From assembly GCA_004299485.1 (NCBI GenBank), contig SCQP01000014.1, positions 186,001 to 250,000 of the forward strand: a stretch of DNA of 64,000 bases, read 5' to 3'. Positions within the stretch are counted from its first letter, which is position 1, and the number at the start of each line of letters is the position of its first letter. A program made the translations under genes and the position numbers. The stretch comes from Acidobacteriota bacterium (lineage in GTDB: Bacteria; Acidobacteriota; Terriglobia; Terriglobales; SCQP01). Below are positions 29,264 through 57,365 of this stretch, piece after piece. The notes below the pieces were generated by a model. The model was not told the DNA's origin. It made no database searches and saw nothing but the letters and a program-made list of their open reading frames with translations.

Positions 29264-30140
29264 GAACCCTCCGAGGCTCCGGTCGGACGTGCAGGGCACG
29301 CTGCAGCAGCACCAGGCCGATGAGGGCTACAGCAAACACCTGCAGGCCGGTCAGCATGTGCCAAATGCCGTGGCTGGCGGCGTCGCCGAAACGAAAGGTG
29401 AGCAGGATGGTGAGCGCGATGCGGACGGCATTGCTGAGGACTGCGAGCGGAGGCATGGCGGCGATGAGCAGGGCACGGCGCCAGCGCGAGGGCTCGAGCA
29501 GGTAGCCATACGCGGTAGCGAGGGCGAGCAGGGCGAGCAACGAACGGATGCCGCTGCAGGCGGCGACCACATCGAGCATGGCAGCGGGCAGGATGATGAG
29601 ATTGCCTTCCCGCAGGATGGGCAGACCGGTCCAGGCGAGCAGGCCGACACCGGTGCGGGTGGCGATGTTTTTGAGCGGGATGGTGGCAAGGTTGTAAATC
29701 AGGGTGGGCCAGGGAATCATGAAGCCCAGGAACGCGAGCGGAAACGCCAGAGCCCGCAGCCAGCGCCAGCCGCGCAGGGTCACGATCAGCCCTGCCAGCA
29801 TGAGAAGGAACGAAGCACGCGTCAAGAGCAGCTCAGAACCCAACTTGCCGACGAGCAAAATCCCCAAGGCAGCGAAGACCAGCAGCAGGCCGGCAGCCCG
29901 TGGCTGCACGGCGAGGGCGCGCAAGCGGTGGCGCCGCTCGAAGACGAGCCATGCGCAGAAGGGCGGCACGAGAAAACCGTAGGCATAGTTGGGATCGGAC
30001 CACCATTGGGCGATCAAGCGGGCGAAAACGGGTGCATACAGCGCCAACAGCGAGGCGACCAAAAGACCGATGCCGAGCCAGTGGCGGGTGACGTTGTGCC
30101 GGGCCGCCACCGGGGCAGCAATCAGTACCGGCGAGCTCAT
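29256..30140 (-). CDS. exosortase (membrane transpeptidase for PEP-CTERM proteins)
   Basis: The 294-residue protein has about eight membrane helices and the three proposed catalytic residues: Cys195 in VVAACSGIRS, Arg240 in LSNAVRIALT and His261 in HGIWHMLTG. Exosortases cleave the C-terminal PEP motif of target proteins and transfer them to an envelope acceptor. The start codon overlaps the preceding stop by ATGA. Two likely substrates are encoded in this window at 55633 and 56640. I do not assign a subtype (XrtA or other). Confidence 0.95.
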   Translation of the reverse strand: MSSPVLIAAPVAARHNVTRHWLGIGLLVASLLALYAPVFARLIAQWWSDPNYAYGFLVPPFCAWLVFERRHRLRALAVQPRAAGLLLVFAALGILLVGKLGSELLLTRASFLLMLAGLIVTLRGWRWLRALAFPLAFLGFMIPWPTLIYNLATIPLKNIATRTGVGLLAWTGLPILREGNLIILPAAMLDVVAACSGIRSLLALLALATAYGYLLEPSRWRRALLIAAMPPLAVLSNAVRIALTILLTFRFGDAASHGIWHMLTGLQVFAVALIGLVLLQRALHVRPEPRRVHV

Positions 30141-36672: not shown

Positions 36673-36677
36673 CGCCG

Positions 36678-37919: not shown

Positions 37920-37929
37920 AGGAAACCCT

Positions 37930-39081: not shown

Positions 39082-39094
39082 TGTTTTGGCCGGC

Positions 39095-41520: not shown

Positions 41521-42236
41521 AACAGGTAATCACGGCTGATCGGCCAGACAAAGCTACCCGGGCGGCCCGCCAGCCAGCGTTGCAATTGCCGGGCCGAAGT
41601 GTGGGCGAGAATGCCGTTGCGCGCCAGCCGGGGCGCGCGAGGCGATGCCAAGCCGGGATGCGAGGTGCAGAGCGCGCTAAAGCCAGCCTGTAGCGCGGCG
41701 CGGAAGACATGCCGATTCCACAGGCCATAGGGTGCGGCGAGGAAGTGCACGGGCGTACCGGCATGATCCTGCAACATATGCCGGGAGGTGCGCAGTTGTT
41801 CGGCCAGCACGGCAGCCGGGAATTGCGTGAAGGGGCGGTGGTCATGGCCGTGGGACTCGATGCCCATACCTGCGCGCCGGAGGGCTTCGACCCCGTTCCA
41901 GGTGAGATAGCCGGGTTTGCCGATGTGGGCGGTGCTCAAGAAGAAGCTGGCCGGCATGCCAAATTTCACCAACGCCGGCAGCGCGACTTCGGCGTCACTG
42001 CTCCTGCCGTCATCAAAACAAAGCACCACGGGGCGGCCTTGGCAGGCTTTTCCCTGCCACCACGAAGCCAGCGACACCACCGTGATCTCACCCCTTTGCT
42101 GCCGACGGCGTAAGAGCCAGAGGTGGTCATAGAAGGCCGCGCAGGAGAGGGTAAAGCGCGCGTCGCAGGGTTGCTGCGCACGCTCGAGACCGTGATAGAG
42201 CAACATCAAGGCGGGTGCTAGCGTACTTGCTGCCAT
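41427..42236 (-). CDS. polysaccharide deacetylase (CE4/NodB-like)
   Basis: The ATG at 42236 gives 269 residues; the upstream extension is a shadow of the GT2 gene. Metal-binding motifs are present: D75-D76 in VLCFDDGRSSDAE and the His pair of ESHGHDH (H129, H133). The catalytic-base region AAPYGLWNRHVF follows. The enzyme probably removes acetyl groups from amino sugars of the polysaccharide. There is no signal peptide, so it may act in the cytoplasm or need another route. It overlaps the GT2 gene by 19 bases and the phosphatase-like gene by 94. Confidence 0.88.
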   Translation of the reverse strand: MAASTLAPALMLLYHGLERAQQPCDARFTLSCAAFYDHLWLLRRRQQRGEITVVSLASWWQGKACQGRPVVLCFDDGRSSDAEVALPALVKFGMPASFFLSTAHIGKPGYLTWNGVEALRRAGMGIESHGHDHRPFTQFPAAVLAEQLRTSRHMLQDHAGTPVHFLAAPYGLWNRHVFRAALQAGFSALCTSHPGLASPRAPRLARNGILAHTSARQLQRWLAGRPGSFVWPISRDYLLWTPKYILMHCPSLRQHVVPLPAGDHSASTF

Positions 42237-43384
42237 GCGGTCTCCCTTCGATCGAACAGGAAGAGCATGAACCCCCAGAGAAAAGCGGCGTTCATGGCAA
42301 GGAAGAAATAGATTCCCCGCGCCAGTTTGTGGCGGCGGTTTCCGGCCCAGGCCAGCCAGTAAACTCCAAGCTGTGCCAGCGCCAGGCAGCGGTAAAACGG
42401 CAGAGACCACAAAGCCAGACTGCCGGCGAGGGCAAACAAAAGGAAAAACGGCACGCCCCAGCGCAGTAATTTGTGAGAGAGCAGCGCCCAGCGGGTGAGG
42501 CCATCGAGGGGCGTGCGCAGGAGTTCGTTCAAGCCGCGAAAGCTACCCACGGCGAGGCGGACGCGGCGGCGGAACTCGCCGCCCAGCGAGGGCGCCGGGA
42601 CCTCCCAGGCCCAGGCGTCCGGATCATAGAGCACGGCGAAACCGGCGCGGCGGGCCTGCATGGGGATCAGGAAGTCTTCGATCCAGGCCTCGGGGCGCAG
42701 GCGTGGAAAACAGGAGCGGCGCACGGCATAAAGAGCGCCACTGGCGGTGAGGGTGGCTCCGAGCCGGCCCTCCATCAGCCGCAGCAGGCACTCGTAGCTC
42801 CAGTAGACGCCTTCAGTCTGCCGCGAGCCGGCGTGATGGCGGAAGCGCAAGGCGCCGCAAACGACGCCGACCTCGGGGTGGGTGAAATGACGTGCCAGGC
42901 GGCGGACGGTATCGTGTTGTGGGCGGGTGCTGGCGTCGAGCAGAACCAGCACTTCGTGGCGGGCGCAGGCGGCGCCGGCATTCAGGGCACTGGCCTTGCC
43001 GGCGCGCACGGGTTGGCGCAATAGATGCATCCAAGGCTCGCACAACCGCTCAAAGCAGGCGTCGGTTCCATCGGTCGAGCCATCGGAGACCAGAATCATC
43101 TGGAGCCGATCGCGCGGATAGTCCAGCGCGCGCAAGCTGGCGCAAAGGCCGGCAATTTCTGCCTCTTCGTTGTGGGCGGCAATGACGATGCTCACGCCCG
43201 GCAGTGGGACTGAGGCCGGAGCGGCAGCGGGACTGTCGCGCAGCAGATGCCACCAAGTACGCCGCAGCTCGATAGCCGAAGAGGCCAGAAACAGCAGCAA
43301 CGGATAGCCGGCGTAGGTATACAGCACCAGACCGCAGGCCGTCCAAAAGAGAGCTTGCAGGGTGACCTGCACGGCGGCGCTCAT
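42218..43384 (-). CDS. GT2 glycosyltransferase, membrane-bound
   Basis: The 388-residue GT-A protein has an N-terminal membrane helix, the GT2 start GVSIVIAAHNEEAEIAGLCA, the SDGSTDGTD site, the metal-binding region VLVLLDASTRPQ, and a C-terminal pair of hydrophobic segments. A RRRVRLAVGSFRGL segment stands where processive enzymes have QxxRW, so single-sugar transfer is more likely than a synthase. It overlaps the priming transferase gene by 4 bases. Confidence 0.88.
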   Translation of the reverse strand: MSAAVQVTLQALFWTACGLVLYTYAGYPLLLFLASSAIELRRTWWHLLRDSPAAAPASVPLPGVSIVIAAHNEEAEIAGLCASLRALDYPRDRLQMILVSDGSTDGTDACFERLCEPWMHLLRQPVRAGKASALNAGAACARHEVLVLLDASTRPQHDTVRRLARHFTHPEVGVVCGALRFRHHAGSRQTEGVYWSYECLLRLMEGRLGATLTASGALYAVRRSCFPRLRPEAWIEDFLIPMQARRAGFAVLYDPDAWAWEVPAPSLGGEFRRRVRLAVGSFRGLNELLRTPLDGLTRWALLSHKLLRWGVPFFLLFALAGSLALWSLPFYRCLALAQLGVYWLAWAGNRRHKLARGIYFFLAMNAAFLWGFMLFLFDRRETAWQQVR

Positions 43385-44712
43385 CGTCCCCCCCGGCCGA
43401 AGCAGACCACCTTAAAGGTTTCGAACAGAATAATGGCGTCGAACCAGAGCGACAGATGGCGGATGTAGAACAAATCGTAGGCGAGCTTTTCCTGATTATC
43501 GGCGAGCGTGGCGCAGTAGCCGCGATTCACCTGCGCCCAACCGGTAGCGCCGGGCGGGACCTGCCAGCGCTGGGTATAACCGGTTATCGAGCGGCAGCAG
43601 TCCTGCTCCTGATCGGGCACAAAGGGACGGGGTCCGACCAAGCTCATCTCCCCGCGCAGAATGTTCCACAGCTGCGGCAGCTCGTCCAGCCGCAAGCGCC
43701 GCAGCCAGCGGCCCACGCGCGTACAGCGAGGATCGTCGTGGGCGGCAGGAGCGTTCTTCAGCGCCGGCGCGCCGTGCACCATGGTGCGGAACTTGAAGAT
43801 CGTGAACGAGCGGCCGTACTGCCCAATGCGCGGTTGGCAGAAAATCACTGGACCGCGCGAGTCGAGAGCAATGAGCGCAGAAAGCAAGAGCAACAGGGGC
43901 CAGCACAACAGGAGGGCCATAGCCGCGACGAATACGTCGAAACAGCGTTTGGCCGTGCGGGTGAGGTGCGAGCGGCGGCAGACGCCCAGGGGAGCCGGCA
44001 GCGCCGCTTTGCCGCTCAGGCGCTCATACCAGGCCACGCCATCCTCGAGACTACAGCCGGCGCGGGTGAGCCGGCTGCGCAGGCCGGCATCAACGCTGGC
44101 CCAGCCGCCGGGAAAGGTAGCCAGCAGGCGCTGGCGCCAACCGCGGGCACCGGCGCCGGCCAAAGCCAGCAGACTCTCCGGCTCCGGGGCGCTGAGGCAG
44201 CCGGTCAGACGCCAGCCGAGCTCACCATGGCGGCGCAGCTCACGATGCAGGGACTGGGTGAGCGCGCCTGAGCCGATCACGACAGCAGCCTGCCGCAACC
44301 GGAAGAGGCCCACGCAGCCCTGCCACAGAGCGCGCAGACCAGCGACGGCAAGGAACGCCGCGGCAAGGCTCAGAAGCGCCAGCCGCGGTCCGGGGATGAG
44401 AGCGGGATGAAGCCATTGCCAAACCGCCAGTGCCAGCGCCATGGTGCCAAGAGCCAGCGGCAATCGCCGCCAGAGTTCACGCCAGTCTCCCAGGACCGGG
44501 CACTCGTACAAATCGCAGATATACAAACACAGAACCCCGAGCAGGCAGATGAGCGCGATGCGCCAGCCGCCGTCTTCCTGCAAAACCAACAAGGCGTCAC
44601 GGCCGAAGCGGACGAGGAACCAGGCACTGAGCGCGAGCACCATGACACCGGCTTCACTGAGCGCGAACTGCCAGCCGCGGCGGCGCGGAAGGTAAACGGT
44701 GGGCCTGGCCAT
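43381..44712 (-). CDS. polyprenyl-phosphate sugar phosphotransferase (priming enzyme)
   Basis: The 443-residue protein has several N-terminal membrane helices and a C-terminal bacterial sugar transferase domain. The latter begins LTRTAKRCFDVFVAAMALLL and contains GPVIFCQPRIGQYGRSFTIF, then KFRTMV and the closing SLVGPRPFVPDQE. It transfers the first sugar phosphate to undecaprenyl phosphate and so starts each repeat unit. Its start touches the kinase stop (TGATG). Confidence 0.93.
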   Translation of the reverse strand: MARPTVYLPRRRGWQFALSEAGVMVLALSAWFLVRFGRDALLVLQEDGGWRIALICLLGVLCLYICDLYECPVLGDWRELWRRLPLALGTMALALAVWQWLHPALIPGPRLALLSLAAAFLAVAGLRALWQGCVGLFRLRQAAVVIGSGALTQSLHRELRRHGELGWRLTGCLSAPEPESLLALAGAGARGWRQRLLATFPGGWASVDAGLRSRLTRAGCSLEDGVAWYERLSGKAALPAPLGVCRRSHLTRTAKRCFDVFVAAMALLLCWPLLLLLSALIALDSRGPVIFCQPRIGQYGRSFTIFKFRTMVHGAPALKNAPAAHDDPRCTRVGRWLRRLRLDELPQLWNILRGEMSLVGPRPFVPDQEQDCCRSITGYTQRWQVPPGATGWAQVNRGYCATLADNQEKLAYDLFYIRHLSLWFDAIILFETFKVVCFGRGGR

Positions 44713-45503
44713 CAGTCTTCCCTGCCCTGTTTGGAATCGCCGGGATAGTAGCGGCGGTAGTAGCTGTGCTCACGCGCCGAACACTCATTGAGGACAACGC
44801 CCAAGAACTTCTTGCGTTCGAGCTGGCGAACAGCCAGTTGCAGATCCGCAAGGCGGGTACGATCGGCGCGGATGGTCAGAATCACGCCATCGACAGCGCA
44901 CGCCCAATGGGCGGCGTCGGCCATGGGCAAAAGCGGAGGGGAATCGACGATAATCCAGTCGAAATGCGGCGCCAGCAGTTGCAGAATGCAGGCGGGCGTC
45001 CAGGTCTGGAGCAATTCGAGCGGCAGGCGGCGGCGGCGGCCGGCGGGCAAAAGCCAGAGCGGCAGACCGCTCCAGCGCGCCATGCATTGCGCCAGTGGCA
45101 GGCGTTGCTCGAGCCAATCCGCCAGCCCACGCTCGCGCTTCACACCCATGCGGGCCAGCAGCGCCGGACGGTGCAAGTCACCTTCGAGCAACAGAACGCG
45201 TTCGCAGCCTGGGCGCGCCAGCGTGTAAGCCAGATTGGCGGCACTGATGGATTTGCCTTCGGCCGGCGCGGCGCTGCTGACCAGCACCGTGTGCAGCGGG
45301 CGCTGGGCGCGGATGTGCTGCAGCGTGACGGCCAAGCGGCGGAATTGCTCCGCGCCCACACTCTGCGGATCCGCGCAGGCGGCAAGGCGCCCTGGAACCG
45401 GCAGCGGCGGCAGCAGGCTGGTGACACGCTCCAGATCTATGGCCTGCAGGGGGAGGGGGGAAAGACTAATCAGCGTAGCCGTAGCAGTTTCCGTCATGGC
45501 CAT
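44712..45503 (-). CDS. bacterial tyrosine kinase-like ATPase (CpsD/EpsG type)
   Basis: The 263-residue cytoplasmic protein has Walker A SSAAPAEGKSISAANLA, Walker A' VLLLEGDLHRP and Walker B WIIVDSPPLLPMADAA. A C-terminal tyrosine cluster (HSYYRRYYP) can serve as the autophosphorylation tail. It pairs with the separate chain-length protein encoded just upstream (3-base gap), as in Gram-positive-style two-protein kinases, and should control polymer length. Confidence 0.9.
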   Translation of the reverse strand: MAMTETATATLISLSPLPLQAIDLERVTSLLPPLPVPGRLAACADPQSVGAEQFRRLAVTLQHIRAQRPLHTVLVSSAAPAEGKSISAANLAYTLARPGCERVLLLEGDLHRPALLARMGVKRERGLADWLEQRLPLAQCMARWSGLPLWLLPAGRRRRLPLELLQTWTPACILQLLAPHFDWIIVDSPPLLPMADAAHWACAVDGVILTIRADRTRLADLQLAVRQLERKKFLGVVLNECSAREHSYYRRYYPGDSKQGRED

Positions 45504-45506
45504 AGT

Positions 45507-47045
45507 TCAACCCCGCAGCATCCACACATTGCCCGCGATGAGCACCAGCAGCAGCGCCGCGCCGGCCGCCCACTCGAAGCGTGACTGCCAGCGGCGCCGC
45601 CTCATCTCACTGAGGCTGCGCAGACTGGGCACGCGCGCCAGAATGGGCGTGAGCCCTAACGCGACGATTTCAGCTTCACCACGGATGCGATCCTGCAGCA
45701 GTTCGGCGGCCGCACTGACGGCCAGGCCGAGAATCAACCCCACGACTACCCCCAGCAGGCTCAACACGCCGGGCTTGGGCGAGATGGGTTTTTGCGGCAG
45801 TGCCGGCGCATCCAGCAACCGGAACTGCGCGCCGCCTTGCTGAGCTTCGAGCTGACTGGCCATCTGCGACGCGTTGCGCTTGCCTAACAGATCCTGGTAG
45901 GCTGTCACCGCCAGTTGCTCCTGCCCTTGCAGGCTGGCCAACTGGGTTGCCGGCAGAGGTGCCAGCGACAGGCGGCGCTGGTACTCGCCGGCCTCGCGCC
46001 GTAACGCACTCACTTGTTTTTGCTGCTCCGGCAGGAGGGCTTCATCGGCCTGCAACTGGCTGCGCACCTGGCTCAAGGCCAGCGAACTCTGGGCGGCGGG
46101 AATGGAGGAGCCGGAAGCACCAGCCGCGGCGGCCGGGTGTGGGGAGTGCTGCAGCGCTACGATCTGCTGCTGCAGTGCGACAACCGCTGGATAGCGATCG
46201 GTATAGCGACTGCGCAACTGCTGTAACTGCGCTTCGAGCGCCGCCAATTGTTGTTGCTGCGCCTGCTGCGCGGGGGTGGGCGCCTGCGCCAGCAGCGCGC
46301 GATCGGAGGCAATTTCCTGCTTGGTGCTATGGATCGCGGCGAGGCTCGACGCCAGTTCGGTTTGCAGACTCATGGCCATAGCCAGATTGGTCTGCGTCTG
46401 ACCGGGCAGGGTACCCAGATGCGCGTGCTCGAAGCTCTGCACCTGAGCCCGCGTCTGTTGCAGTTGTGCGGCGGCTTGCTGCACTTGTTGGTCGAGAAAG
46501 GACGTAGTCTGGGCCGAGGCTTGCTGCGTGGCCTGCAGGTTGTCCTGAATGAACAGGGTGGTGAGATCGTTGGCGACAGCCTGGGCGAGCGCAGGCGAGG
46601 GCGCCTGGAAGGCGATGGTGATGGCGCTCCAGTCGCCGCTTTGGGGATGGGGCAAGCTGGCGAGACTCACCGGCTGGATGGAGATCGCCTTGCGCAACTT
46701 GAGAATCGCAGCGTCGAGACCTTGGCGCGCCTCGACGGCGGGATACAGGTGATACTGCCGTACGACCTGCGCCAAGCGGTCGTGACTGAGCACCTGCTGG
46801 CCAAGACTTTGCAGCATTTGATCTGCATTGAAGGTGACGTTGGGCTGCACGTAGGTATGCGGAACGGATTGCTGCTCGATCAGCAGCAAGGCCTGCGACT
46901 GATACTGAGCCGGCAGCACGTAGCGGAGCGAGGCTACGGCGGCCCAGCCGCACAGCAGCGGCAGCAGCAGCCACCAGCGCCGGCGGCGAAAGATGGCGCC
47001 GACGGCCTGCACACTCATGGTCGAAGTCGAACCCCCCAGGGACAA
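45507..47045 (-). CDS. polysaccharide chain-length determinant (Wzz-like)
   Basis: A TTG start at 47045 is favoured because it follows GAAGGAGGAG at ideal spacing; an ATG at 47018 is the alternative. The product (512 residues) has a membrane helix after FRRRRWWLLLPLLCGWAAVA, a long periplasmic Gln-rich coiled-coil region (about residues 170-380) and a second membrane helix near 430 (VLSLLGVVVGLILGLAVSAA). A third hydrophobic stretch lies at the C-terminus. It is the membrane partner of the kinase-like ATPase. Confidence 0.9.
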   Translation of the reverse strand: MSLGGSTSTMSVQAVGAIFRRRRWWLLLPLLCGWAAVASLRYVLPAQYQSQALLLIEQQSVPHTYVQPNVTFNADQMLQSLGQQVLSHDRLAQVVRQYHLYPAVEARQGLDAAILKLRKAISIQPVSLASLPHPQSGDWSAITIAFQAPSPALAQAVANDLTTLFIQDNLQATQQASAQTTSFLDQQVQQAAAQLQQTRAQVQSFEHAHLGTLPGQTQTNLAMAMSLQTELASSLAAIHSTKQEIASDRALLAQAPTPAQQAQQQQLAALEAQLQQLRSRYTDRYPAVVALQQQIVALQHSPHPAAAAGASGSSIPAAQSSLALSQVRSQLQADEALLPEQQKQVSALRREAGEYQRRLSLAPLPATQLASLQGQEQLAVTAYQDLLGKRNASQMASQLEAQQGGAQFRLLDAPALPQKPISPKPGVLSLLGVVVGLILGLAVSAAAELLQDRIRGEAEIVALGLTPILARVPSLRSLSEMRRRRWQSRFEWAAGAALLLVLIAGNVWMLRG

Positions 47046-47046
47046 T

Positions 47047-48321
47047 TTAGACTCCTCCTTCGGGTAATGGCGGCCATTGCCAGCGCAACCGGATGCCGCC
47101 GAGACTGCGGTTGAGGGCGGGAGCCAGAGGCATCAGGCCGGAGCTGCGCTGCAGAAAATACTCGTAATCGAACTCCAGGCTGAGCTGCCGCCCCAAGCGG
47201 CGCGCGAGGGCGGCATCGATCGCCGCAAGACGCACGTGGCCGACCAAGTCCGCCCCGCCGTCAAGGGCGTTGAATTGTGAGGCGTTCAGGCCGAATTGCG
47301 CACGCCACTGGGGCGAAATCTGCCGTGCGATGGAACCCGAGGCGGTGAACAGCGAAGTGGGAAACGGCAGGGCGCCGCCGCCATTGCTGATTTGCTGGCC
47401 CAGGGTCAGGCGCCAGGGCCAGCCGCGGCCCTGATGGGTAATGCTCGCGGTCAGACGGGGATAGGTGCGCACGCGGTAGAAGCGGTCGGTGAGCGTGAGC
47501 GGCAGACCGCCGATGTTCAGATGAAGCTGATCGGTCTCGTGGACCTGGCTGTACTCGGGTCCGCCAGAAAACTGAACCGACGTTACCGGCGTGAAATCGT
47601 GCTGAAAGTGCAGCAGCAGGCTGGCGGCGGCGAGATGGGCGTCATGGCCGATGCCGAAATTCTGCTGGTCCAGTTCGAGTCCCCAGGTGGTGCGTGGGGT
47701 AGCGGTGAAGCTGTAGCGCAGGCCGCTGTTTTCGCCTTTGACGCCACGCAAGGTCTGCGCCCATACGCCGGCGCCGGGAAAACGGCGTTCGGTAAACTCG
47801 CCGAAGGCCTGCAGCGAGCTGCGCGCGCTCATGGCGTAGCCAAGCTGAAGCTGGGCATCTCCCGAGACGGCGCGGGTGCGCGGCAGTAAGGGCAGAGGCG
47901 CCACGCCGGCGAGGCCGGTGACCGAACCGACGCCGGTCGTGGGCATGCGCTCCAAGTAGCTGCCGTCGGCACTGCCTCCCAGAGTCCAACGCGGGCTGGG
48001 CTTCATCCTGAGGTTGGCAACGGCGGTCTGGTTGAAACTGTTCAGGCCAGGATAGGCGGTGACGATTTGCATCGCCGGGCGATATTGCAGCTGCAGGCGG
48101 TGGGTGGGCGACAATTGCTGCCACTGCAGCAGACCGTTCAATTCCTGCTCCCAGCCGGCGATGGTCTGCTGGTTGTCCTGCAGCAGGTTGCTGTCATAGC
48201 TGGACTGCGCGGTGGCCGCGATACTCCAGGGACTGGGCGCTGCCGGCGGCGCCTGTGCCGCCGCTGCACAGCTCAACGCGGTGAACACGGCCGCGAGCCC
48301 TACGAGGCGCTTACGGGACAA
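47047..48321 (-). CDS. outer-membrane beta-barrel protein of the polysaccharide locus
   Basis: The most plausible start is the TTG at 48321, which follows GGAG and overlaps the export gene stop by 11 bases. It gives a signal peptide (RKRLVGLAAVFTALSCAAAA) cut near AAAQA. The remaining part (424 residues in total) alternates short polar/aromatic strands, as in DSNLLQDNQQTI and LEFDYEYFLQRSSG, with turns, and fits an outer-membrane barrel of the kind found in exosortase-linked polysaccharide operons. It may form or assist the export pore. Confidence 0.75.
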   Translation of the reverse strand: MSRKRLVGLAAVFTALSCAAAAQAPPAAPSPWSIAATAQSSYDSNLLQDNQQTIAGWEQELNGLLQWQQLSPTHRLQLQYRPAMQIVTAYPGLNSFNQTAVANLRMKPSPRWTLGGSADGSYLERMPTTGVGSVTGLAGVAPLPLLPRTRAVSGDAQLQLGYAMSARSSLQAFGEFTERRFPGAGVWAQTLRGVKGENSGLRYSFTATPRTTWGLELDQQNFGIGHDAHLAAASLLLHFQHDFTPVTSVQFSGGPEYSQVHETDQLHLNIGGLPLTLTDRFYRVRTYPRLTASITHQGRGWPWRLTLGQQISNGGGALPFPTSLFTASGSIARQISPQWRAQFGLNASQFNALDGGADLVGHVRLAAIDAALARRLGRQLSLEFDYEYFLQRSSGLMPLAPALNRSLGGIRLRWQWPPLPEGGV

Positions 48322-48964
48322 TGAGGGTATCTCCGGGCTGGAGCAGGCGATCCTGCTGCAGGCGATGGCCGTGGATAACGTCAGAGTAGTTGAAATGAAA
48401 ACGCTCCTGTTGGCCGCCGGCATCCCAGTGCAGCACCAGGATGTGATCGCGGTCGGCAAAGGGCGTAAAGCCACCCGCCAGGGCCAGCGCTTGCAGAACG
48501 TGCGTGGGCCGCACCAGCGGATAGCTGCCGGGACGGAGCACGGATCCCAGCACCTGAAACGCACGGCTGACAACTTTGTCGACCATAACGGTCACGTCCG
48601 GGTGGGCGATGTAGGCTGCCAGTTTGGTTTCGATCTGCTGGCTCAATTCGGCCGGCGTAAGGCCGCTGGCGCGCACCGCGCCGACAAGCGGCAGGGTGAT
48701 GTTGCCGTCCGGGCGAACGGGTTCGGTTTGCGAGATCTCGGCTTCTTTCCAAACGTCAATGCGGAGCACGTCGCCAGGACCGATGCGATACCCGGTCTCC
48801 GAGCCATCCGCGCCGTCACGCCGCCCGGCGCTCGGAGCGGGCGCCTTCTGCGCCGCATGACCGTGCCAAGGCATGAGCCAATGCAGGGGCGTCTGGGCTG
48901 AGGCGGCCAAGAGGCCGGCCAGTACCACGGCGCCGCCAAGGAGCGATAGCCGCCCGAAGTTCAT
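48311..48964 (-). CDS. polysaccharide export protein (Wza/OPX-like, short form)
   Basis: The 217-residue protein has an N-terminal signal (LSLLGGAVVLAGLLAASA). It then has the export domain start YRIGPGDVLRIDVWKEAEIS, RPDGNITLPLVGAVRASGLT and an SLBB-type repeat (VLGSVLRPGSYPLVRPTHVL). It lacks the C-terminal helix of Wza and no lipobox cysteine is seen, so a separate barrel, probably the next gene, may be needed in the outer membrane. The ATG overlaps the regulator stop by 4 bases. Confidence 0.9.
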   Translation of the reverse strand: MNFGRLSLLGGAVVLAGLLAASAQTPLHWLMPWHGHAAQKAPAPSAGRRDGADGSETGYRIGPGDVLRIDVWKEAEISQTEPVRPDGNITLPLVGAVRASGLTPAELSQQIETKLAAYIAHPDVTVMVDKVVSRAFQVLGSVLRPGSYPLVRPTHVLQALALAGGFTPFADRDHILVLHWDAGGQQERFHFNYSDVIHGHRLQQDRLLQPGDTLIVP

Positions 48965-50007
48965 ACGTCCTCCTCGGGGCTGGGAATCGGAACGGGCCCG
49001 GAGTCGACGTGCAAGCCGTTTTCCTTCAGCTTGTACAGCAGCGCGCGGTAACTGATCTGCAGCGCCGCGGCGGTGCGCTTGCGGTGCCAGTGATGCGCGG
49101 CCAGCGCTTGCAGAATGATGTTGCGCTCCAGCTCGCGCGTCGCGCGCCGCGTGAGGGCTTTGAGTGACACGTTGTCACCCAAGTCGGTCTCGGAGGCGGT
49201 GCAATCGGCCAAGGGGGGCAGCAGTTCCATGGCGCTGCCCAGCACGACGTACCGCTTCATCATGTTTTCCAGTTCGCGGACGTTGCCGGGCCAGCGGTAC
49301 CGTTGCAGCAGGCTCACAAGCTCGGGCGCCAGCGACGGCACCTTGCGTTCGAAGTGGCGGCTGTAGACGTCAATGAAGTGGCGCGCCAGGCGAGGAATGT
49401 CTTCGCGCCGGTGGCGCAGCGGCGGCAGTGCAATGCCCACCACGTTGATGCGGTAGTACAGGTCGCTGCGCAGCCGGCCCGCGGCGACTTCGGCATCCAG
49501 GTCTCGATTGGTGGCAAACAGCATGCGCGTCGAGGCGCGCAGCTCGGTGCGCCCGCCCAGCCGCATGAAATGGCCGTCCTGGAGCAATTGCAGCAGCTTG
49601 CCCTGCAGGCTCAATTCGAGCTCGCCGATTTCGTCCAGAAACAGCGTGCCGCCTTCGGCCTGTTCGATGCGCCCTGGCTTGCAGAGATGAGCGCCGGTGA
49701 AGGCACCCTTTTCAAACCCAAATAGTTCGCTCTCGAGCAAGCTGCCGGGGATGGCGGGGCAGTTGAGCTTCACGAACGGACCGGGCACAGTCGCCTGCCG
49801 GTGCAACAGCCGCGCCACCAGTTCCTTGCCTGTGCCGCTTTCGCCGGTGATGAGCACCGGGATGGGCGTAGAGCTGAGGAGATCGAGCTTTTCGCGCACG
49901 CGCTGCATGGCGCGCGAGCTGCCGAACAAGATTTCCGGCTCCGCCAGGCCATGGCAGGGCGATCCGCTCGCCCCGCTTGCCGCCTCGTCCATCGCAGTCG
50001 AAGTCAT
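48961..50007 (-). CDS. sigma-54-dependent activator without receiver domain (first gene of polysaccharide operon)
   Basis: The ATG at 50007 is chosen; the much longer frame upstream is antisense to rsbR. The 348-residue protein has an AAA+ domain with Walker A GESGTGKELVARLLH, the sigma-54 contact loop GAFTGA, and Walker B TLFLDEIGEL, then RYRWPGNVRELENMMKRYVV. The Fis-type helix-turn-helix TAAALQISYRALLYKLKENG closes the protein. Only about 30 residues precede the AAA+ domain, so no sensory or phosphorylation domain is present. It heads the 19-gene operon and probably regulates it or the PEP-CTERM genes. Confidence 0.92.
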   Translation of the reverse strand: MTSTAMDEAASGASGSPCHGLAEPEILFGSSRAMQRVREKLDLLSSTPIPVLITGESGTGKELVARLLHRQATVPGPFVKLNCPAIPGSLLESELFGFEKGAFTGAHLCKPGRIEQAEGGTLFLDEIGELELSLQGKLLQLLQDGHFMRLGGRTELRASTRMLFATNRDLDAEVAAGRLRSDLYYRINVVGIALPPLRHRREDIPRLARHFIDVYSRHFERKVPSLAPELVSLLQRYRWPGNVRELENMMKRYVVLGSAMELLPPLADCTASETDLGDNVSLKALTRRATRELERNIILQALAAHHWHRKRTAAALQISYRALLYKLKENGLHVDSGPVPIPSPEEDV

Positions 50008-50268
50008 TGTCTTCACTGCTTGACTACTTGCACGCCGGCGGCCATTCGTGCCAGAGCCAATTTTCAATCCCCACGCGGAAAAACACGCGCTGCCACGGGC
50101 ACGGCTATGCAACCTCGTGCAGATTGGCGCGCGGTTGGCTGCATCAGGGTTTTTCGCCACGCAAGTCCGGGTAAACCATGAGCGGAAAGCCTTGACAGCG
50201 CAGCCGCCCACCGCGCTAAGCTGACCTTCCGCCCAAAGTTGTGCATTTCCCGGGCGGCGAGGCGCCAC
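50008..50268. promoter_or_regulatory. divergent promoter region between the polysaccharide operon and the stressosome operon
   Basis: The 261 bases must hold promoters for both divergent operons. On the plus strand TTGACA at 50192-50197 lies 17 bases before GCTAAG (50215-50220), a weak sigma-70 type pair. I found no convincing -24/-12 sigma-54 site reading toward the polysaccharide operon. Confidence 0.4.
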
Positions 50269-51180
50269 ATGCCCACACGCGGAACCCCTACCCCGAACAT
50301 TTCCACCGCGACCGCCACCGCCACCGCGGAAGCTGCCAGCACGCTGCTGCGCGAGCTGGTGGCCCACCTGCGGCAAAACCGCACCCAATTGCGCGAAGAA
50401 TGGGCGCGGCGCATCACCGAAGCCGAACTGCTGACGGCGATGACCAAGGAAGAAATCTTCGCCGAAGCCACCTCGGTGTACGACAACTACGTCGAGGCGC
50501 TGGAAACCGGCACTTTCGAGGCGCTGCAGGCCTATGCCCGCAACCTGTCGGAGCGCATCATTCCGCGCGGCGTCGAAACGCACGAAGTCGTCGGCATCGT
50601 GTTGCTGCTGCGCGACGTGCTGGCGCGGTCGCTCTTTGCCAAGTACCAGACCGACTTCACCAAACTGAACCGGATTCTGGATGCCTACGAACCGGCAGCG
50701 AATCGCATCGCCAACACCGTGGCGGTCGGCTTCGTGCAGGAGCGCGAGCGCATCATCCGCGAGCAGCAGGAAGCCATCCGCGAGCTGTCCACGCCGGTGT
50801 TACAGGTGCGCGAGCGGCTGCTGATTTTGCCTATCATCGGCGTCATCGACCCACAGCGCGCGCGCCAGCTTACCGAACAACTGCTGCGCGGCATCCGCAC
50901 CAACCGCGCCAAGGTGGTCGTGATTGATATTACGGGCGTGGCGGCGATGGATGCCACGGTCGCCAACCACCTGGTGCAAACGGTGGAGGCGTCGCGCCTG
51001 CTGGGCGCCACCGTCATCGTCACCGGCCTATCGCCGGAAATTGCGCAAACGCTGGTTACGATTGGGGTGGATCTGGGTAAGATGACCACCGTTGGTGATC
51101 TGCAGGGTGGCATTGAAGAGGCGGAGCGTTTGCTCGGCTATAAGGTGGTGCCGTTTGTGGAAGGGGCGGTAGAAGCGTAA
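50269..51180 (+). CDS. rsbR: RsbR-like stressosome protein (sensor domain plus STAS)
   Basis: The ATG at 50269 follows GAGG at good spacing; a TTG 30 bases upstream is less likely. The 303-residue product has an N-terminal helical RsbR domain (about residues 25-170, containing REEWARRITEAELLTAMTKE) and a C-terminal STAS domain (about 175-290) starting LSTPVLQVRERLLILPIIGV. The STAS region includes VVIDITGVAAMDATVANHLV, where the threonine after DA marks the phosphorylation site used by RsbT. RsbR and RsbS form the stressosome core in the cytoplasm. Confidence 0.92.
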   Translation: MPTRGTPTPNISTATATATAEAASTLLRELVAHLRQNRTQLREEWARRITEAELLTAMTKEEIFAEATSVYDNYVEALETGTFEALQAYARNLSERIIPRGVETHEVVGIVLLLRDVLARSLFAKYQTDFTKLNRILDAYEPAANRIANTVAVGFVQERERIIREQQEAIRELSTPVLQVRERLLILPIIGVIDPQRARQLTEQLLRGIRTNRAKVVVIDITGVAAMDATVANHLVQTVEASRLLGATVIVTGLSPEIAQTLVTIGVDLGKMTTVGDLQGGIEEAERLLGYKVVPFVEGAVEA

Positions 51181-51213
51181 GGTAAGCCTCAGGACCATTA
51201 TTAAGGACAAGGC

Positions 51214-51639
51214 GTGGATGTACCCGTACTCAAACAGGGCCATTTTCTCATTGCCACCGTACAGTCGGCGCTGACGGATGCGGATTTGGCGCAACTGCGC
51301 CGCTCGCTGGTGGAGCAGGTGGGAAAGTTCCGCTCGCGGGGCGTGATTGTGGACGTGACGGCGGTGGACGTGCTCGATTCCTTCGCCTGCCGCACGCTCC
51401 GCGACATTGCCCACATGGCCGGTTTTCGGGGCGCTGAAACTGTCATCGTGGGTATCCATCCGGAGCTGGCGTTCACTATGGTGCAGTTGGGCCTGTCGCT
51501 GGAGGGGGTAGCGACGGCGCTGGATTTGGAAGAAGGCCTGGCCTATCTGCAAGAGCGAACCACCCCTGCCGCACGGAAAAGCTCCCCCCTTGCCACGCGT
51601 GGCGCCGGGCGCGGTCCGGTGAGCCGTGGCCAGCGCTGA
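51214..51639 (+). CDS. rsbS: RsbS-like stressosome scaffold (STAS domain)
   Basis: The GTG at 51214 follows AAGGACAAGG. The 141-residue protein is a single STAS domain starting VPVLKQGHFLIATVQSALTD. DVTAVDVLDSFACRTLRDIA contains the serine that RsbT is expected to phosphorylate (DS). A short arginine-rich tail follows. It lies 33 bases after rsbR and overlaps rsbT by 14 bases. Confidence 0.92.
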   Translation: MDVPVLKQGHFLIATVQSALTDADLAQLRRSLVEQVGKFRSRGVIVDVTAVDVLDSFACRTLRDIAHMAGFRGAETVIVGIHPELAFTMVQLGLSLEGVATALDLEEGLAYLQERTTPAARKSSPLATRGAGRGPVSRGQR

Positions 51640-52030
51640 GCGCATCCGCATCCGCACGGACCGGGACATCCTGCTGGCGCGGCAGCGCGGCCGCGAGATG
51701 GGGCAGACGGCTGGCTTTGTGGCGACCGACTTGACGCTGATTGCCACTGCCATCTCCGAGCTGGCACGCAACATTGTGCTCTATGCGCGCGAAGGCATGC
51801 TGGAAATCCACCTGGTCGCCGAGGACGCACGCTGCGGGCTGCTCATTGTGGCGCGTGACCACGGACCGGGGATTGCCGACCTGACGCGCGCCATGCAGGA
51901 CGGCTTCTCGACCTCCGGCGGCCTCGGTCTGGGACTGCCGGGCGTGAAGCGGCTGATGGACAGCTTTGAAATCGATAGTTACCCCGGCCTCGGAACCACG
52001 GTCCGGATTGCAAAGTGGCGCCGCTCATGA
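51626..52030 (+). CDS. rsbT: RsbT-like serine kinase (GHKL ATPase)
   Basis: The GTG at 51626 gives 134 residues. Motifs of the anti-sigma-factor-like kinase fold are present: TAISELARNIVLYAREG (N box), ARDHGPGIADLTRAMQDG (G1) and SGGLGLGLPGVKRLMDSFEI (G2). In known stressosomes it phosphorylates RsbR and RsbS, is released, and activates a downstream partner. It is coupled to both neighbours by overlaps. Confidence 0.93.
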   Translation: MASAERIRIRTDRDILLARQRGREMGQTAGFVATDLTLIATAISELARNIVLYAREGMLEIHLVAEDARCGLLIVARDHGPGIADLTRAMQDGFSTSGGLGLGLPGVKRLMDSFEIDSYPGLGTTVRIAKWRRS

Positions 52031-52653
52031 AACCGGCAGCGCCAATCTGCCGCGTGCGTTGGGGCATCGCCGAACATCCCCTCGCCGGAGAAACGCGCAG
52101 CGGCGATGCGGCGCTGGTGGTGGAACAGGAACAGGGTTGCTTGCTGGCCGTGGCCGACGGCCTCGGCCACGGGGCGGAGGCGGCCGAGGCGGCCGAGGCC
52201 GGGATGAAGGCGTTGCGGCACGCGGCACAGCATTCGGTTCTGCAACTGTTACGGGACTGCCACGAAGCCTTGCGAGGCACACGCGGCGCGGTGATGAGTC
52301 TGGCGTGGATCGACTACCGCGAGGCCCAGCTCACCTGGGCTGGCGTCGGCAACGTGAACGGCATGCTGTTACGCGCCCGGGAGACCGGCGAAGGCGCGCA
52401 CGAATATCTGCTCTGCCGGGGCGGAACTCTGGGGTTGCAACTGCCGCCGCCCTATGCCGCTATCACCACCGTTGCGCCCGGCGATACGCTGGTGTTGTTC
52501 ACCGACGGTCTCGACCAGGCCGCCGTGTCGGGGTTCAACGACCTGATTTCGCCCCCCGACCGCGCCGCGGCGACGCTGCTGCGCACGTGCGAGCGGGGCA
52601 AGGACGATGCGCTGGTGCTGGTGGCCCGCTACGCCCTGGAGACGGGGTCATGA
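52027..52653 (+). CDS. rsbX: RsbX-like PP2C phosphatase
   Basis: The ATG at 52027 overlaps the rsbT stop (ATGA). The 208-residue protein is a compact SpoIIE/PP2C domain with GDAALVVEQEQGCLLAVADG, LGHGAEAAEAAEAG, and later DTLVLFTDGLDQAAV and GKDDALVLVARY, supplying the metal-binding aspartates. RsbX-type enzymes dephosphorylate RsbS/RsbR and reset the stressosome. It overlaps the kinase gene downstream by 4 bases. Confidence 0.9.
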   Translation: MKPAAPICRVRWGIAEHPLAGETRSGDAALVVEQEQGCLLAVADGLGHGAEAAEAAEAGMKALRHAAQHSVLQLLRDCHEALRGTRGAVMSLAWIDYREAQLTWAGVGNVNGMLLRARETGEGAHEYLLCRGGTLGLQLPPPYAAITTVAPGDTLVLFTDGLDQAAVSGFNDLISPPDRAAATLLRTCERGKDDALVLVARYALETGS

Positions 52654-53627
52654 GCGCGCCGCCCTGGACGCTCCCGGCAGAGGACAGGACGGCGGCCTAT
52701 GCCCGGCTGCTGGAGCAACATTGGAGCGCAGCCGGCGACGAGACCGAAGAGGTATTGGAGGCGGCCTACCAAATGGGCCGGGCGCTGCTCGGCGCTGGCG
52801 TCACGCTGCTGGAGTTGAGCGAGATGCATCACCGCGCGCTGGCCCAGCTTGCCACTCGCATGGAAGCCGGCGCGCCGCGTCTGCTTGCCGCGGGAAGGTT
52901 ATTGCAGGAAGTCGAGGGCGGCTATGAAATGTTGCTGCGCGGCTATCATGACGCCAACGCGGCACTCCGGCGGGCCAATGAACATTTGGAAGATCAGATC
53001 GAGCAGATCGCGCGCGCCCTGCACGATGAATCCGGACAGCTTCTGGCGGCGGTGATGATACGGCTGGATCAGGCGGTGCACCGCCTGCCGGCGGCGCAGC
53101 AGGAGGAATTCGCCGCGGTGCGGAAACTGCTGGACGACGTGGAATTCGGCATCCGCCGGCTGGCCCACGAGATGCATCCGGCGCTGCTCGCCGACCTGGG
53201 TCTGCGACCGGCGCTGGAATTTCTTGCCGACGGCGTCGCCGGCCGTTCGGGATTACACATTTCCGTCGAGGGCGAGCTGCCGCAGCGGCTGCCGCGCGCG
53301 GTGGAGCTGTGCCTCTACCGCTGCGCTCAGGAAACGCTCAACAATGTGGTGCGGCATGCCCAGGCTTCACGCGTCCGCATGCACTTGCAGCAGCGTGGCG
53401 GCACGGTGGAACTACAGGTGAGCGATGACGGCCGGGGCTTCGCGCCGCCGCCTTCGCAGGAAGGCGGCGAAGGCATGGGCCTCAACGGCATGCGCGAGCG
53501 GTTGCGCGGCGTGGAGGGTGAACTCGAGATCGAGACCCAGCCGGGCGCAGGCGTGCAGGTACATTTGCGCATTCCCGTGCCCGAGAAAGGAGGGCTGCAT
53601 GGCGATTCGGCTGCTGCTGGCCGATGA
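52650..53627 (+). CDS. NarL-family histidine kinase with RsbU_N-like domain
   Basis: The ATG at 52650 overlaps the rsbX stop; the longer upstream frame is a shadow. The 325-residue soluble kinase has a phosphoacceptor His125 in IARALHDESGQLLAAVMIRL, a second box AHEMHPALLADLGLRPALEF, N box QETLNNVVRHA (227-237), G1 DDGRGF (259-264) and G2 GMGLNGMRERL. Residues about 15-75 (LLEQHWSAAG, then LGAGVTLLELSEMHHRALAQ) resemble the RsbU N-terminal domain that binds RsbT. It therefore could be the direct output of the stressosome. That link is inference. No membrane segment is present. Confidence 0.88.
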   Translation: MSAPPWTLPAEDRTAAYARLLEQHWSAAGDETEEVLEAAYQMGRALLGAGVTLLELSEMHHRALAQLATRMEAGAPRLLAAGRLLQEVEGGYEMLLRGYHDANAALRRANEHLEDQIEQIARALHDESGQLLAAVMIRLDQAVHRLPAAQQEEFAAVRKLLDDVEFGIRRLAHEMHPALLADLGLRPALEFLADGVAGRSGLHISVEGELPQRLPRAVELCLYRCAQETLNNVVRHAQASRVRMHLQQRGGTVELQVSDDGRGFAPPPSQEGGEGMGLNGMRERLRGVEGELEIETQPGAGVQVHLRIPVPEKGGLHGDSAAAGR

Positions 53628-54231
53628 TCACGAAATCGTGCGCCAGAGCCTGCGCCTGCTGCTCGAACACGAAGGCTTTCAGGTGCTGGCGGAAGCCAGC
53701 GACGGTCACACGGCGGTGAAACTGGCTACCACCTGCCATCCGCAGGTTGCAGTACTGGACCTGAACATGCCGCTGCTGAATGGCCTCGATGCCGCACGAG
53801 AAATCGTGCGCCAGGCGCCGAACACGCGCTGCGTCTTACTGACCATGCACAGCGACGAGCGCTACGTGCTGGAAGCTCTGCAGGCGGGAATCTCCGGCTA
53901 CGTGCTCAAGAGCAAGAGCAGCGCCGATCTAGTGCGCGCCATCAACGAAGCGGCCTCGGGCAGTATGTTCCTGAGCCCGGCCGTTTCCGGCACGCTTGTT
54001 CATGCCTATCTCAACCGGGCCGACCCGAACCCGGAGGTACTGGGCGCACGCGAACGGCAGGTGTTGCAACTCGTCGCCGAGGGGAAAACCACGAAAGAGA
54101 TCGCCAGCCTGCTCGGCATCACGCTCAAGACAGCCGAATCGCACCGCACCCACATTATGGACAAGCTGGGGGTCCGCAACGTGGCGGGCCTAGTGCGCTA
54201 CGCCATCCGGCGGGGCTTGATCCAGCCGTAA
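53599..54231 (+). CDS. NarL/FixJ-type response regulator
   Basis: The ATG at 53599 follows AAAGGAGGG, a strong ribosome site, and overlaps the kinase gene by 29 bases. The 210-residue protein has a receiver domain with the acidic pair in LLLADDHEIV, phospho-Asp54 in AVLDLNMPLLNGLD and Lys in GYVLKSKSSADLV. A LuxR-type helix-turn-helix follows (LGARERQVLQLVAEGKTTKE and LGITLKTAESHRTHIMDKLG). It is the natural partner of the preceding kinase and the likely DNA-binding output of this module. Confidence 0.95.
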   Translation: MAIRLLLADDHEIVRQSLRLLLEHEGFQVLAEASDGHTAVKLATTCHPQVAVLDLNMPLLNGLDAAREIVRQAPNTRCVLLTMHSDERYVLEALQAGISGYVLKSKSSADLVRAINEAASGSMFLSPAVSGTLVHAYLNRADPNPEVLGARERQVLQLVAEGKTTKEIASLLGITLKTAESHRTHIMDKLGVRNVAGLVRYAIRRGLIQP

Positions 54232-54361: not shown

Positions 54362-55423
54362 ATGCCATATTTGTCGGCTGCGTTTGCTGCTGTACCTGAA
54401 GTGACACCTGTGCCCCAGCCTCTGCAGCAGCAGTTAGGACTGCAGCGCTGGATGGTGGCGCAGAGCCCGGCCATGATCGCCCTGGGCGCACGGGCGCAAC
54501 AGTTGGCAGGGTTCAACCTGCCGGTTCTGCTTCTCGGCGAAAGCGGGACGGGCAAAGAGGTACTGGCGCACATCGTCCACGACTGTTCGCCGCGGCGATC
54601 GCATCGATTTTTGAAGATCAATTGCGCCGCTCTGCCCCACGATCTACTGGAAAGTGAGTTGTTCGGGTATGAGGCAGGCGCGTTTACCGGCGCCACACGG
54701 ACCAAACCAGGCCATTTCGAGAGTTGCGACAAGGGGACGCTGTTTCTGGACGAAATTGGAGAACTACCACTGGCGCTGCAGGCAAAACTGCTGCACGTAC
54801 TGCAAGATCATCGCTTCACACGCCTGGGCGGACGGCAGGAGCTGTTTGCAGATGTGCGGATCCTGGCCGCTACCAATGTAGATCTGCCGCGCGCGATGGC
54901 GGAACGGCAATTTCGCGAGGATCTGTTCTTCCGGCTCAACGTATTCTCGCTGCATCTGCCACCGTTGAGGGAACGGCAGGAGGATATTCTGCCGCTAACC
55001 GAGTATTTTCTGGAGCGGTACGCGGCGGAGCTGCGTTGCCCCCACCGGCCGCTGAGTCCGGCGCTACGGGAATGCTGTGTGCGGTACGCCTGGCCGGGGA
55101 ACGTGCGCGAACTGGAAAATTTTGTGAAACGATACCTGATCTTTGGCGAACAGGCATGGCTGGACGTGTCCCCCTCCGCAGCGCCGCCGTCTGGGAATCA
55201 CGCCGAGGCGGCCTCCCAGCCGGGCGAAGGCTTAAAGGATGTGGTCCATCGGGTGGCGAGCGAGGTCGAACGCCAAACCATTGCGCGGGCTCTCGAAGAC
55301 TGTCACTGGAACCGGACGGTTGCGGCACGCGCGTTGAATATCAGCTATCGGGCACTGCTGAATAAGCTGCAGCTCTATCAACTTGGGCCCAGTGCGGCGG
55401 CGGCCCGTCCCATCGCCCACTAG
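54362..55423 (+). CDS. sigma-54-dependent activator without receiver domain, upstream of PEP-CTERM genes
   Basis: The 353-residue protein has an AAA+ domain with Walker A GESGTGKEVLAHIVHD, the GAFTGA loop, Walker B TLFLDEIGELPLAL and RYAWPGNVRELENFVKRYLI. It ends with the Fis-type helix TVAARALNISYRALLNKLQL. No receiver or sensory domain precedes the AAA+ part. The helix ISYRALL-KL is the same as in the activator that heads the polysaccharide operon. It lies 130 bases after the response regulator and just before two genes with sigma-54 promoters, so it is the prime candidate activator for them. Confidence 0.92.
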   Translation: MPYLSAAFAAVPEVTPVPQPLQQQLGLQRWMVAQSPAMIALGARAQQLAGFNLPVLLLGESGTGKEVLAHIVHDCSPRRSHRFLKINCAALPHDLLESELFGYEAGAFTGATRTKPGHFESCDKGTLFLDEIGELPLALQAKLLHVLQDHRFTRLGGRQELFADVRILAATNVDLPRAMAERQFREDLFFRLNVFSLHLPPLRERQEDILPLTEYFLERYAAELRCPHRPLSPALRECCVRYAWPGNVRELENFVKRYLIFGEQAWLDVSPSAAPPSGNHAEAASQPGEGLKDVVHRVASEVERQTIARALEDCHWNRTVAARALNISYRALLNKLQLYQLGPSAAAARPIAH

Positions 55424-55567: not shown

Positions 55568-55632
55568 CATAAAGAGAGCGGTTGCGCTGCTTGCAGGCAG
55601 ACTACCTACTCTACGTCGGTAAGGGAGAGCGC

Positions 55633-56352
55633 ATGAAACCAAGGCCTTCACTGGCAGCTATTGCCGGACTCGCTATGATCGCAGCCCTGAGCGCTACGGG
55701 CGCGGCGCAAAGCACGATTCAATTAAATGCAGGACCGGGCCAGGTGGTGACGTTCACCGGGCAAGGCTCGACTTCACGGACGATCGGCGTCACGCTGGGT
55801 GCCTGTAGCTGGAGCGGAGACTGCAGCCTCGGCGGCGCAGGCACGGGCAGCGGTTCGCTTGCCTCTTCGGGCACGTTCAACATCCGATCGAGCGCCAACA
55901 GCATCGTCTTAACGCCCAACGGCGGTGGCAGTTACACCGCGTCCGCATCCTCCCCCATCTACCTCACTCTCACCGGTTCGGCCAACGGACAGAGCGGGAC
56001 GTTACTCGCGGGCACGCTGACTCTGCTGAATTTTGTGCAGACGAAGAGCGCCAGTCAAGGAAGGTTCAACACCAGTATCAGCGCCAATCTGAACGTGACG
56101 GAAGGGATGCTGGCCAGTTGGTTCGGATCGGATAGCGCGGTCCTCGGCTTGAACGTAGAGTTTCCCTGTGGGGGCAGTCTGTCGGGCCTCACGGGAACGA
56201 ATCGCTCATTGGTTTCGAGCTTGTCGGCGAGCGGCGCGGGAGGGATTTCACCGGCGCCGGAACCCAGCACGCTTGCCTTGGTGGGTGCGGGCCTGCTGGT
56301 GCTGGGCGTGGGGTTGCGCATCCGCCATCCCCACGCAGAGATGCCGGCATAA
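55633..56352 (+). CDS. PEP-CTERM surface protein 1
   Basis: The ATG at 55633 follows GGGAGAG. The 239-residue product has a signal peptide (LAAIAGLAMIAALSATGAAQ), a Ser/Thr/Gly-rich beta region, and a C-terminal exosortase sorting signal: PAPEPSTLALVGAGLLVLGV, then a basic RIRHPH end. It should be exported, cleaved by the exosortase at the PEP motif and placed on the surface. It is a clear paralogue of the next gene. It contains four cysteines, possibly paired in the mature protein. The function of the mature domain is unknown. Confidence 0.93.
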   Translation: MKPRPSLAAIAGLAMIAALSATGAAQSTIQLNAGPGQVVTFTGQGSTSRTIGVTLGACSWSGDCSLGGAGTGSGSLASSGTFNIRSSANSIVLTPNGGGSYTASASSPIYLTLTGSANGQSGTLLAGTLTLLNFVQTKSASQGRFNTSISANLNVTEGMLASWFGSDSAVLGLNVEFPCGGSLSGLTGTNRSLVSSLSASGAGGISPAPEPSTLALVGAGLLVLGVGLRIRHPHAEMPA

Positions 56353-56563: not shown

Positions 56564-56639
56564 GTACAGAAGCTGCGGATGAGCTGCTTGTGCGCAGGCA
56601 GATCTTCCGAATTCATTGGCAAGGGAGAACAACACAACC

Positions 56640-57365
56640 ATGAGACGAAGAATTACGCTCGCAATGACAACTGGCCTGGCCGTGATCCTGGCCCTGGGTG
56701 TCGCTGCGGCCGCGCAAAGCACCATTCAGTTGACGGCCGGCGCCGGCCAGACAGTGACGTTTACCGGACAAGGCTCAGGCTCGCAGAACATCGGCGTGTC
56801 GCTGGGTTCGTGCGGCCTGTTGGGGAGCTGCACGCTCACGGGCTCAGGGACCGGCAGCGGAACGCTGGCCTCGTCCGGCTCGTTCACCATCACCTCTAAC
56901 CCCAACTCCATCGTGTTGAGCCCGAACGGCAGCGGAGGGTTCAATGCCTCGGCATCGGCGCCGATCAATTTTAACCTCACAGGTTCAGCGAACGGTCAGA
57001 CCGGGACGTTGCTGTCGGGCACGCTGAACCTGCTCAACTTCACGCAGGCGCAGGGATCCAGTCAAGGAGCGTTCAACACCAATCTGGGCGCGAACCTCAA
57101 TCTGACGGGGGGACTGCTGGCCAGCGCCTTTACCTCGAGCGGCGGCATCCTTACGCTCAACGTGCAGTTCCCAACCAACACCAATGTTTCGACGCTGGTG
57201 GGCACGAACCTGTCGCTGACCTCGAGCCTGTCGGCAAGTGGCGCCGGCGGCATTTCGCCCACGCCGGAGCCGAGCACGCTCGCGCTGGTGGGCGTGGGTC
57301 TGCTGGTGCTAGGTCTGGGATTGCGGATGCGTCGCCGTCCCGCTATGCCTGCCCTGGCTGCCTAG
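56640..57365 (+). CDS. PEP-CTERM surface protein 2
   Basis: The ATG at 56640 gives 241 residues. It has a signal peptide (LAMTTGLAVILALGVAAAAQ), a mature start STIQLTAGAGQTVTFTGQGS nearly the same as in protein 1, and the sorting signal PTPEPSTLALVGVGLLVLGL with RMRRRP at the end. Threonine, serine, glycine and asparagine dominate the mature part. The two genes are tandem duplicates that kept promoter, leader and terminator. Predicted substrate of the exosortase encoded at 29256-30140. Confidence 0.94.
   Translation: MRRRITLAMTTGLAVILALGVAAAAQSTIQLTAGAGQTVTFTGQGSGSQNIGVSLGSCGLLGSCTLTGSGTGSGTLASSGSFTITSNPNSIVLSPNGSGGFNASASAPINFNLTGSANGQTGTLLSGTLNLLNFTQAQGSSQGAFNTNLGANLNLTGGLLASAFTSSGGILTLNVQFPTNTNVSTLVGTNLSLTSSLSASGAGGISPTPEPSTLALVGVGLLVLGLGLRMRRRPAMPALAA

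Follow-up and report, generated by a model that had tools for sequence, protein, structure and literature searches.

Within a 64,000-nucleotide stretch of an Acidobacteriota bacterium genome (contig SCQP01000014.1, positions 186,001 to 250,000; hereafter the window, whose numbering is used for its features), a six-gene operon at 50269-54231 on the forward strand most probably represents a stressosome with a two-component output, in which an RsbR/RsbS core, the switch kinase RsbT and the reset phosphatase RsbX would act on a histidine kinase through docking of RsbT on an RsbU_N domain. A direct link between RsbT and this kinase had been suggested in an earlier note on the sequence, and it is supported by the co-occurrence of the two partners across the phylum, by the exchange of outputs behind RsbU_N and by a natural rsbT-kinase-regulator trio. 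We infer the physical contact itself and its sign, with activation being the more likely.

The gene set and order previously reported, rsbR-S-T-X followed by a soluble NarL-family kinase and a NarL-type regulator, were confirmed, as was the coupling of all genes except rsbR and rsbS by short overlaps (14 nucleotides for rsbS/rsbT, 4 for rsbT/rsbX, 4 for rsbX/kinase and 29 for kinase/regulator). A gap of 33 nucleotides separates rsbR from rsbS, and a promoter scan found nothing. All six genes lie on the forward strand. RsbR (50269..51180) consists of an RsbRD_N-like sensor head, which scores under the Pfam cut-off, and a STAS domain; RsbS (51214..51639) is a single Pfam STAS domain with the phospho-acceptor Ser56 in the motif DSF; RsbT (51626..52030) is a GHKL serine kinase of 134 residues (Pfam HATPase_c/HATPase_c_2) with a conserved N-box, ELARN, and conserved R19 and R23; and RsbX (52027..52653) is a single-domain SpoIIE-type PP2C phosphatase (Pfam SpoIIE). 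The four are encoded together with the expected domains, in agreement with the gene-content definition of an rsbRSTX module. In searches of solved structures, RsbR and RsbS matched RsbR and RsbS chains, RsbT matched anti-sigma F (SpoIIAB), and the structures nearest to RsbX were 3zt9 (annotated SpoIIE) and the RsbX structure 3w40.

The kinase (52650..53627; Pfam RsbU_N, HisKA_3 and HATPase_c) fits the NarL-family definition, with HisKA_3, HATPase_c, an acceptor histidine and a NarL-type regulator as partner. The acceptor His125 (53022..53024) was read by eye in HDESGQ, a DxxxQ-type motif, and is invariant across 13 aligned kinases. The best fold match of the full-length kinase was DesK, for which Foldseek reports the catalytic core only, and no input domain other than RsbU_N was found in the kinase by Pfam. 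The regulator (53599..54231) carries Response_reg and GerE domains (LuxR/GerE helix-turn-helix) and the phospho-acceptor Asp54.

The likeness of the kinase N-terminus to RsbU_N, placed by the earlier note at about residues 15-75, was borne out for residues 17-92 (52698..52925), which score 29.0 bits against the curated cut-off of 25.5 for RsbU_N (PF08673) and form the only match to this family in the 3.3 Mb genome. A single-sequence phmmer search of the N-terminus against the PDB gave no match, so a profile was needed. The profile check that the note had proposed, built here from 18 related N-termini, returned the B. subtilis RsbU N-terminus as its only significant PDB match (2j70, E 1.1e-9; 1w53, E 1.4e-7; next matches E 0.29 or worse), with an alignment that extends into the RsbU linker. 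AlphaFold predicted the head as four helices (predicted local distance difference test score, pLDDT, 92; full kinase 84), and a single helix, residues 75-143 (52872..53078), was predicted to span the last head helix, the linker and the first DHp helix with His125. Using the head in Foldseek, we obtained KaiA-C as the only coherent cluster, with probabilities of 0.57-0.85 but weak E values above 0.1, and RsbU was not in the top 50. According to a 2024 paper (PMC11372060), KaiA and N-RsbU were the only proteins previously known to have the KaiA-C fold, and KaiC and RsbT bind equivalent sites on it. By the Pfam cut-off, the profile search and, with weak structural matches, the predicted four-helix fold, the RsbU_N head of the kinase is real.

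We then looked for RsbU_N and this RsbR across the phylum (297 genomes). RsbU_N was present in 14 genomes and this RsbR in 15, 14 of them with rsbT; RsbU_N and rsbRST occurred together in 11 genomes where fewer than one would be expected by chance (Fisher p ~4e-15, a value that is only indicative because related genomes are not independent). In the three rsbRST genomes without an RsbU_N match (L089, L090 and L091), the contig ends just downstream. The order R-S-T-X-kinase recurs in four members of the window's family (G305, G300, G302 and G298), the first three of which also have the regulator, and G304 and G306 of the same family follow it as far as their short contigs allow. Behind RsbU_N, most relatives carry HisKA_3 kinases, and others carry PAS-PAS-HisKA_3 (G095), HisKA (G066), PAS-GAF-HisKA-REC (G188) or a PAS protein cut by the contig end (G208). 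In G153 (L037, 4708-6981), an orphan rsbT stands directly before the genes for an RsbU_N kinase and a regulator; the stretch examined contains none of rsbR, rsbS and rsbX, and no RsbR turned up anywhere in this genome. On these comparisons, the co-inherited partner of RsbT is the RsbU_N head, whichever output is attached to it.

Other arrangements were also observed. G289 (L092, 9596-11526) has rsbS, then rsbR (82% identity) and a solitary receiver protein; rsbT and rsbX were undetected, leaving a stressosome core without its kinase. G092 has one more RsbU_N kinase, of low score, which is accompanied by a regulator and lacks an adjacent rsbT (L047, 6091-7858). When named genomes were scanned with the kinase, a single distant kinase was the only match. 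The wiring has exceptions: in plasmid-borne stressosomes of four other genera, either the kinases lack RsbU_N or RsbX bears an additional ATPase head. The kinase N-terminus carries a fused RsbT-like ATPase domain in the plasmid stressosomes of Alloyangia and Deinococcus, and in that of Variovorax, as read from the sequence, such a domain is joined to RsbX (fusion loci L083, 9548-10687; L084, 8621-9652; L086, 9661-11016). These fusions represent alternative routes by which RsbT-like domains are wired to outputs.

RsbT release and RsbT-RsbU docking are known from relatives, and the same docking has been proposed for kinases (PMC12143880). In our model, RsbT would be held on the RsbR/RsbS core, a putative assembly, in the absence of stress; upon stress, RsbT would phosphorylate Ser56 of RsbS and be released. 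Once free, RsbT would bind the dimeric kinase at its RsbU_N head and linker. As the last RsbU_N helix is predicted to continue unbroken into the His125 helix, docking would set the coiled-coil or make it stiffer and shift the kinase/phosphatase balance, leading to a change in phosphorylation of the NarL-type regulator, while RsbX would remove the phosphate from RsbS and reset the core.

Residues on both sides of the presumed contact are partly conserved. R19 and R23 of RsbT, both implicated in RsbU binding (PMC12143880), are invariant in 19 of 19 RsbTs, the orphan included; N24 is not invariant. On the kinase side, the invariant E33 is the aligned counterpart of RsbU E24, and a near-invariant tyrosine, Y40, lies about one helical turn after the position of RsbU Y28, which has no counterpart in the kinase, with R44 on the same face. 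The stretch LRxxNExLE is a common kinase linker motif and was for that reason not counted as evidence.

Several observations weigh against the proposed docking. RsbU Y28, I74 and I78 are not conserved in the kinases. The salt bridge between RsbU R91 and RsbT D92 is not consistently preserved: about seven relatives have another residue in place of D92 although the kinase arginine persists, and in two relatives D92 is present but the linkers lack the arginine, so that the pair does not co-vary; transfer of this exact contact to the kinase is accordingly not supported. In Vibrio vulnificus, where rsbRSTX stands with the two-component system D1/D2, RsbT binding was not detected for the downstream two-component protein D1, which itself lacks RsbU_N. 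Finally, both RsbR threonines that RsbT phosphorylates in Bacillus and Listeria are absent, with P195 and A229 at the positions of Listeria T175 and T209 (B. subtilis T171 and T205); relatives have P or S at the first site (mostly P) and A, S, N or T at the second (mostly A, S or N). These threonines belong to the classical cycle and not to the gene-content definition of a stressosome, and without them the classical release cycle must be altered in part. By contrast, the phospho-serine of RsbS (B. subtilis S59, Listeria S56) is S56 in DSF and is aligned in all loci, and the phospho-switch probably works through RsbS alone. The proposed dock is homologous to that of Bacillus in domain and face, with a residue chemistry that is not simply copied.

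RsbR is otherwise the most conserved of these proteins, with identities across families of the phylum of 83-96%, compared with 65-87% for RsbS, 54-78% for RsbT, 42-64% for RsbX and 28-65% for the kinase. Its four-fold degenerate sites are well diverged (35-71% identity, mostly near 50%; window 50269-51180, L035-L046 and L062-L066 compared), and the identity of the protein thus reflects strong purifying selection and not recent transfer.

Direct docking of RsbT remains the best reading of the co-occurrence, of the constancy of RsbU_N with swapped kinases and of the G153 trio. It is quite unlikely that RsbT instead phosphorylates the kinase or the regulator on serine or threonine through a transient contact, with no stable allosteric docking on RsbU_N. 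RsbT does retain its kinase motifs, and such phosphorylation has been suggested for downstream kinases lacking RsbU_N (Heinz 2022, PMC9237108); however, the present kinase has RsbU_N, a known non-catalytic dock that is retained across swapped kinases. Very unlikely, in our estimate, is a head that serves only for dimerisation or for docking of a partner other than RsbT, with membership of the operon reflecting co-regulation. N-RsbU is a dimer, its fold relative KaiA-C binds another partner, KaiC, and two RsbU_N-like kinases, both weak matches, have no nearby rsbT (L047 and L048), but the near-perfect co-occurrence with rsbT extends to the G153 locus, where rsbT, kinase and regulator stand with no rsbR, rsbS or rsbX nearby.

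The main target of RsbT might also lie elsewhere, in another SpoIIE phosphatase or a partner-switch module near an RsbW-like gene, leaving the kinase an accessory. The earlier note had reported that sigma-B, RsbW and RsbU are missing, which holds for the operon, and for RsbW also throughout the window; at the scale of the genome the claim about RsbW fails, as one RsbW/SpoIIAB-like ATPase is encoded by a lone gene roughly 3.4 kb after the end of the window (L049, 9343-9867). The genome also encodes three further SpoIIE phosphatases. None of these proteins carries RsbU_N, the phosphatases having GAF, HAMP or FHA-GAF heads, and sigma-B models searched against the whole genome matched only other sigma factors, below the cut-off, the best two of which read as RpoD-like and FliA-like. 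No RsbU-V-W-sigB cascade, and hence no sigma-B partner switch, was found in the locus. We regard a main target outside the operon as highly improbable, and docking of RsbT on the adjacent kinase as the preferred explanation.

The operon sits between the single exosortase/polysaccharide cluster of the genome and two PEP-CTERM genes (29301-57365). On the reverse strand lie an exosortase of the EpsH family (29301..30056), with no second exosortase found elsewhere in the genome, and a run of XrtA/PEP-CTERM-like exopolysaccharide genes (35338..48964; ligase-like, glycosyltransferases, sugar transferase, tyrosine autokinase, chain-length and export), most of which score under the equivalog cut-offs; a polysaccharide export gene (48311-48964) ends the run. 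Beside the export genes is a divergent sigma-54 activator with AAA+ and Fis helix-turn-helix domains and no receiver (48961..50583, reverse strand), a mechanically called open reading frame that overlaps rsbR on the opposite strand and whose true start is for that reason probably further in. Downstream, on the forward strand, follow a second receiver-less sigma-54 activator, a conserved neighbour (54362..55423), and two PEP-CTERM proteins, possible exosortase substrates (55582..56352 and 56616..57365).

These flanks are conserved in the family members G305, G300 and G302, and the export gene also adjoins the truncated G309 locus. In three members of another family (G019, G169 and G201) and in G119, polysaccharide export, chain-length or sugar-transferase genes occur within a few kb, whereas no exosortase/polysaccharide neighbourhood was seen in the stretches examined at G298, G137, G066, G095, G092 and G188, indicating a lineage trend. 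Judged from position, the exosortase, polysaccharide and PEP-CTERM genes, and with them the extracellular matrix, are a likely output, as this flanking arrangement is common to several relatives. The fuller scheme, in which stress-released RsbT would act through the kinase and regulator on the flanking polysaccharide, sigma-54-activator and PEP-CTERM genes, with an RsbR that does not depend on canonical threonine phosphorylation, is tentative and on balance doubtful. Among the papers searched, none mentioned both the stressosome and exosortase.

In alpha-, beta- and gamma-Proteobacteria, RsbU_N has been described as part of signalling proteins encoded after rsbRSTX (Heinz 2022, PMC9237108), and an RsbU_N NreB-type kinase has been modelled and the same activation scheme put forward (Baral 2025, PMC12143880). 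In those systems, as here, rsbRSTX precedes a kinase headed by RsbU_N and docking of RsbT is proposed; the wiring is thus already published and the idea is not new. The window operon differs in its phylum, in its NarL-type receiver-helix-turn-helix regulator and in its exosortase/polysaccharide locus, and its RsbR matches RsbRD_N weakly, whereas the Proteobacterial set was defined by globin-coupled RsbR. The sigma-B operons of B. subtilis and Listeria (rsbRSTU-V-W-sigB-X) share RsbR, RsbS, RsbT, RsbX and the RsbU_N domain; in contrast, the window operon has no RsbU phosphatase, RsbV, RsbW or sigma-B, has a kinase as output, and its RsbR lacks the phospho-threonines. In Moorella thermoacetica, RsbT likewise acts through RsbU_N on a non-phosphatase effector, the RsbU_N-GGDEF protein MtG (Quin 2012, as cited in PMC12143880), which is a diguanylate cyclase instead of a histidine kinase. 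DesK/NarL-type HisKA_3 kinases share the catalytic core of the window kinase, whose input is RsbU_N and not a membrane sensor.

Collectively, what is added here is the phylum-wide co-inheritance, the output swapping, the rsbT-kinase trio, the loss of the RsbR phospho-sites and the exosortase-locus context. For stressosome signalling without sigma-B, the only well-studied two-component case is that of Vibrio, in which RsbT binding was not demonstrated and RsbU_N is lacking. The present operon encodes a small soluble system of six genes in which the docking domain is clear; with the exchanged outputs of its relatives and the natural trio that has no rsbR, rsbS or rsbX nearby, it makes the control of a kinase by RsbT directly testable in vitro, and its exosortase/polysaccharide location provides a concrete, measurable output.

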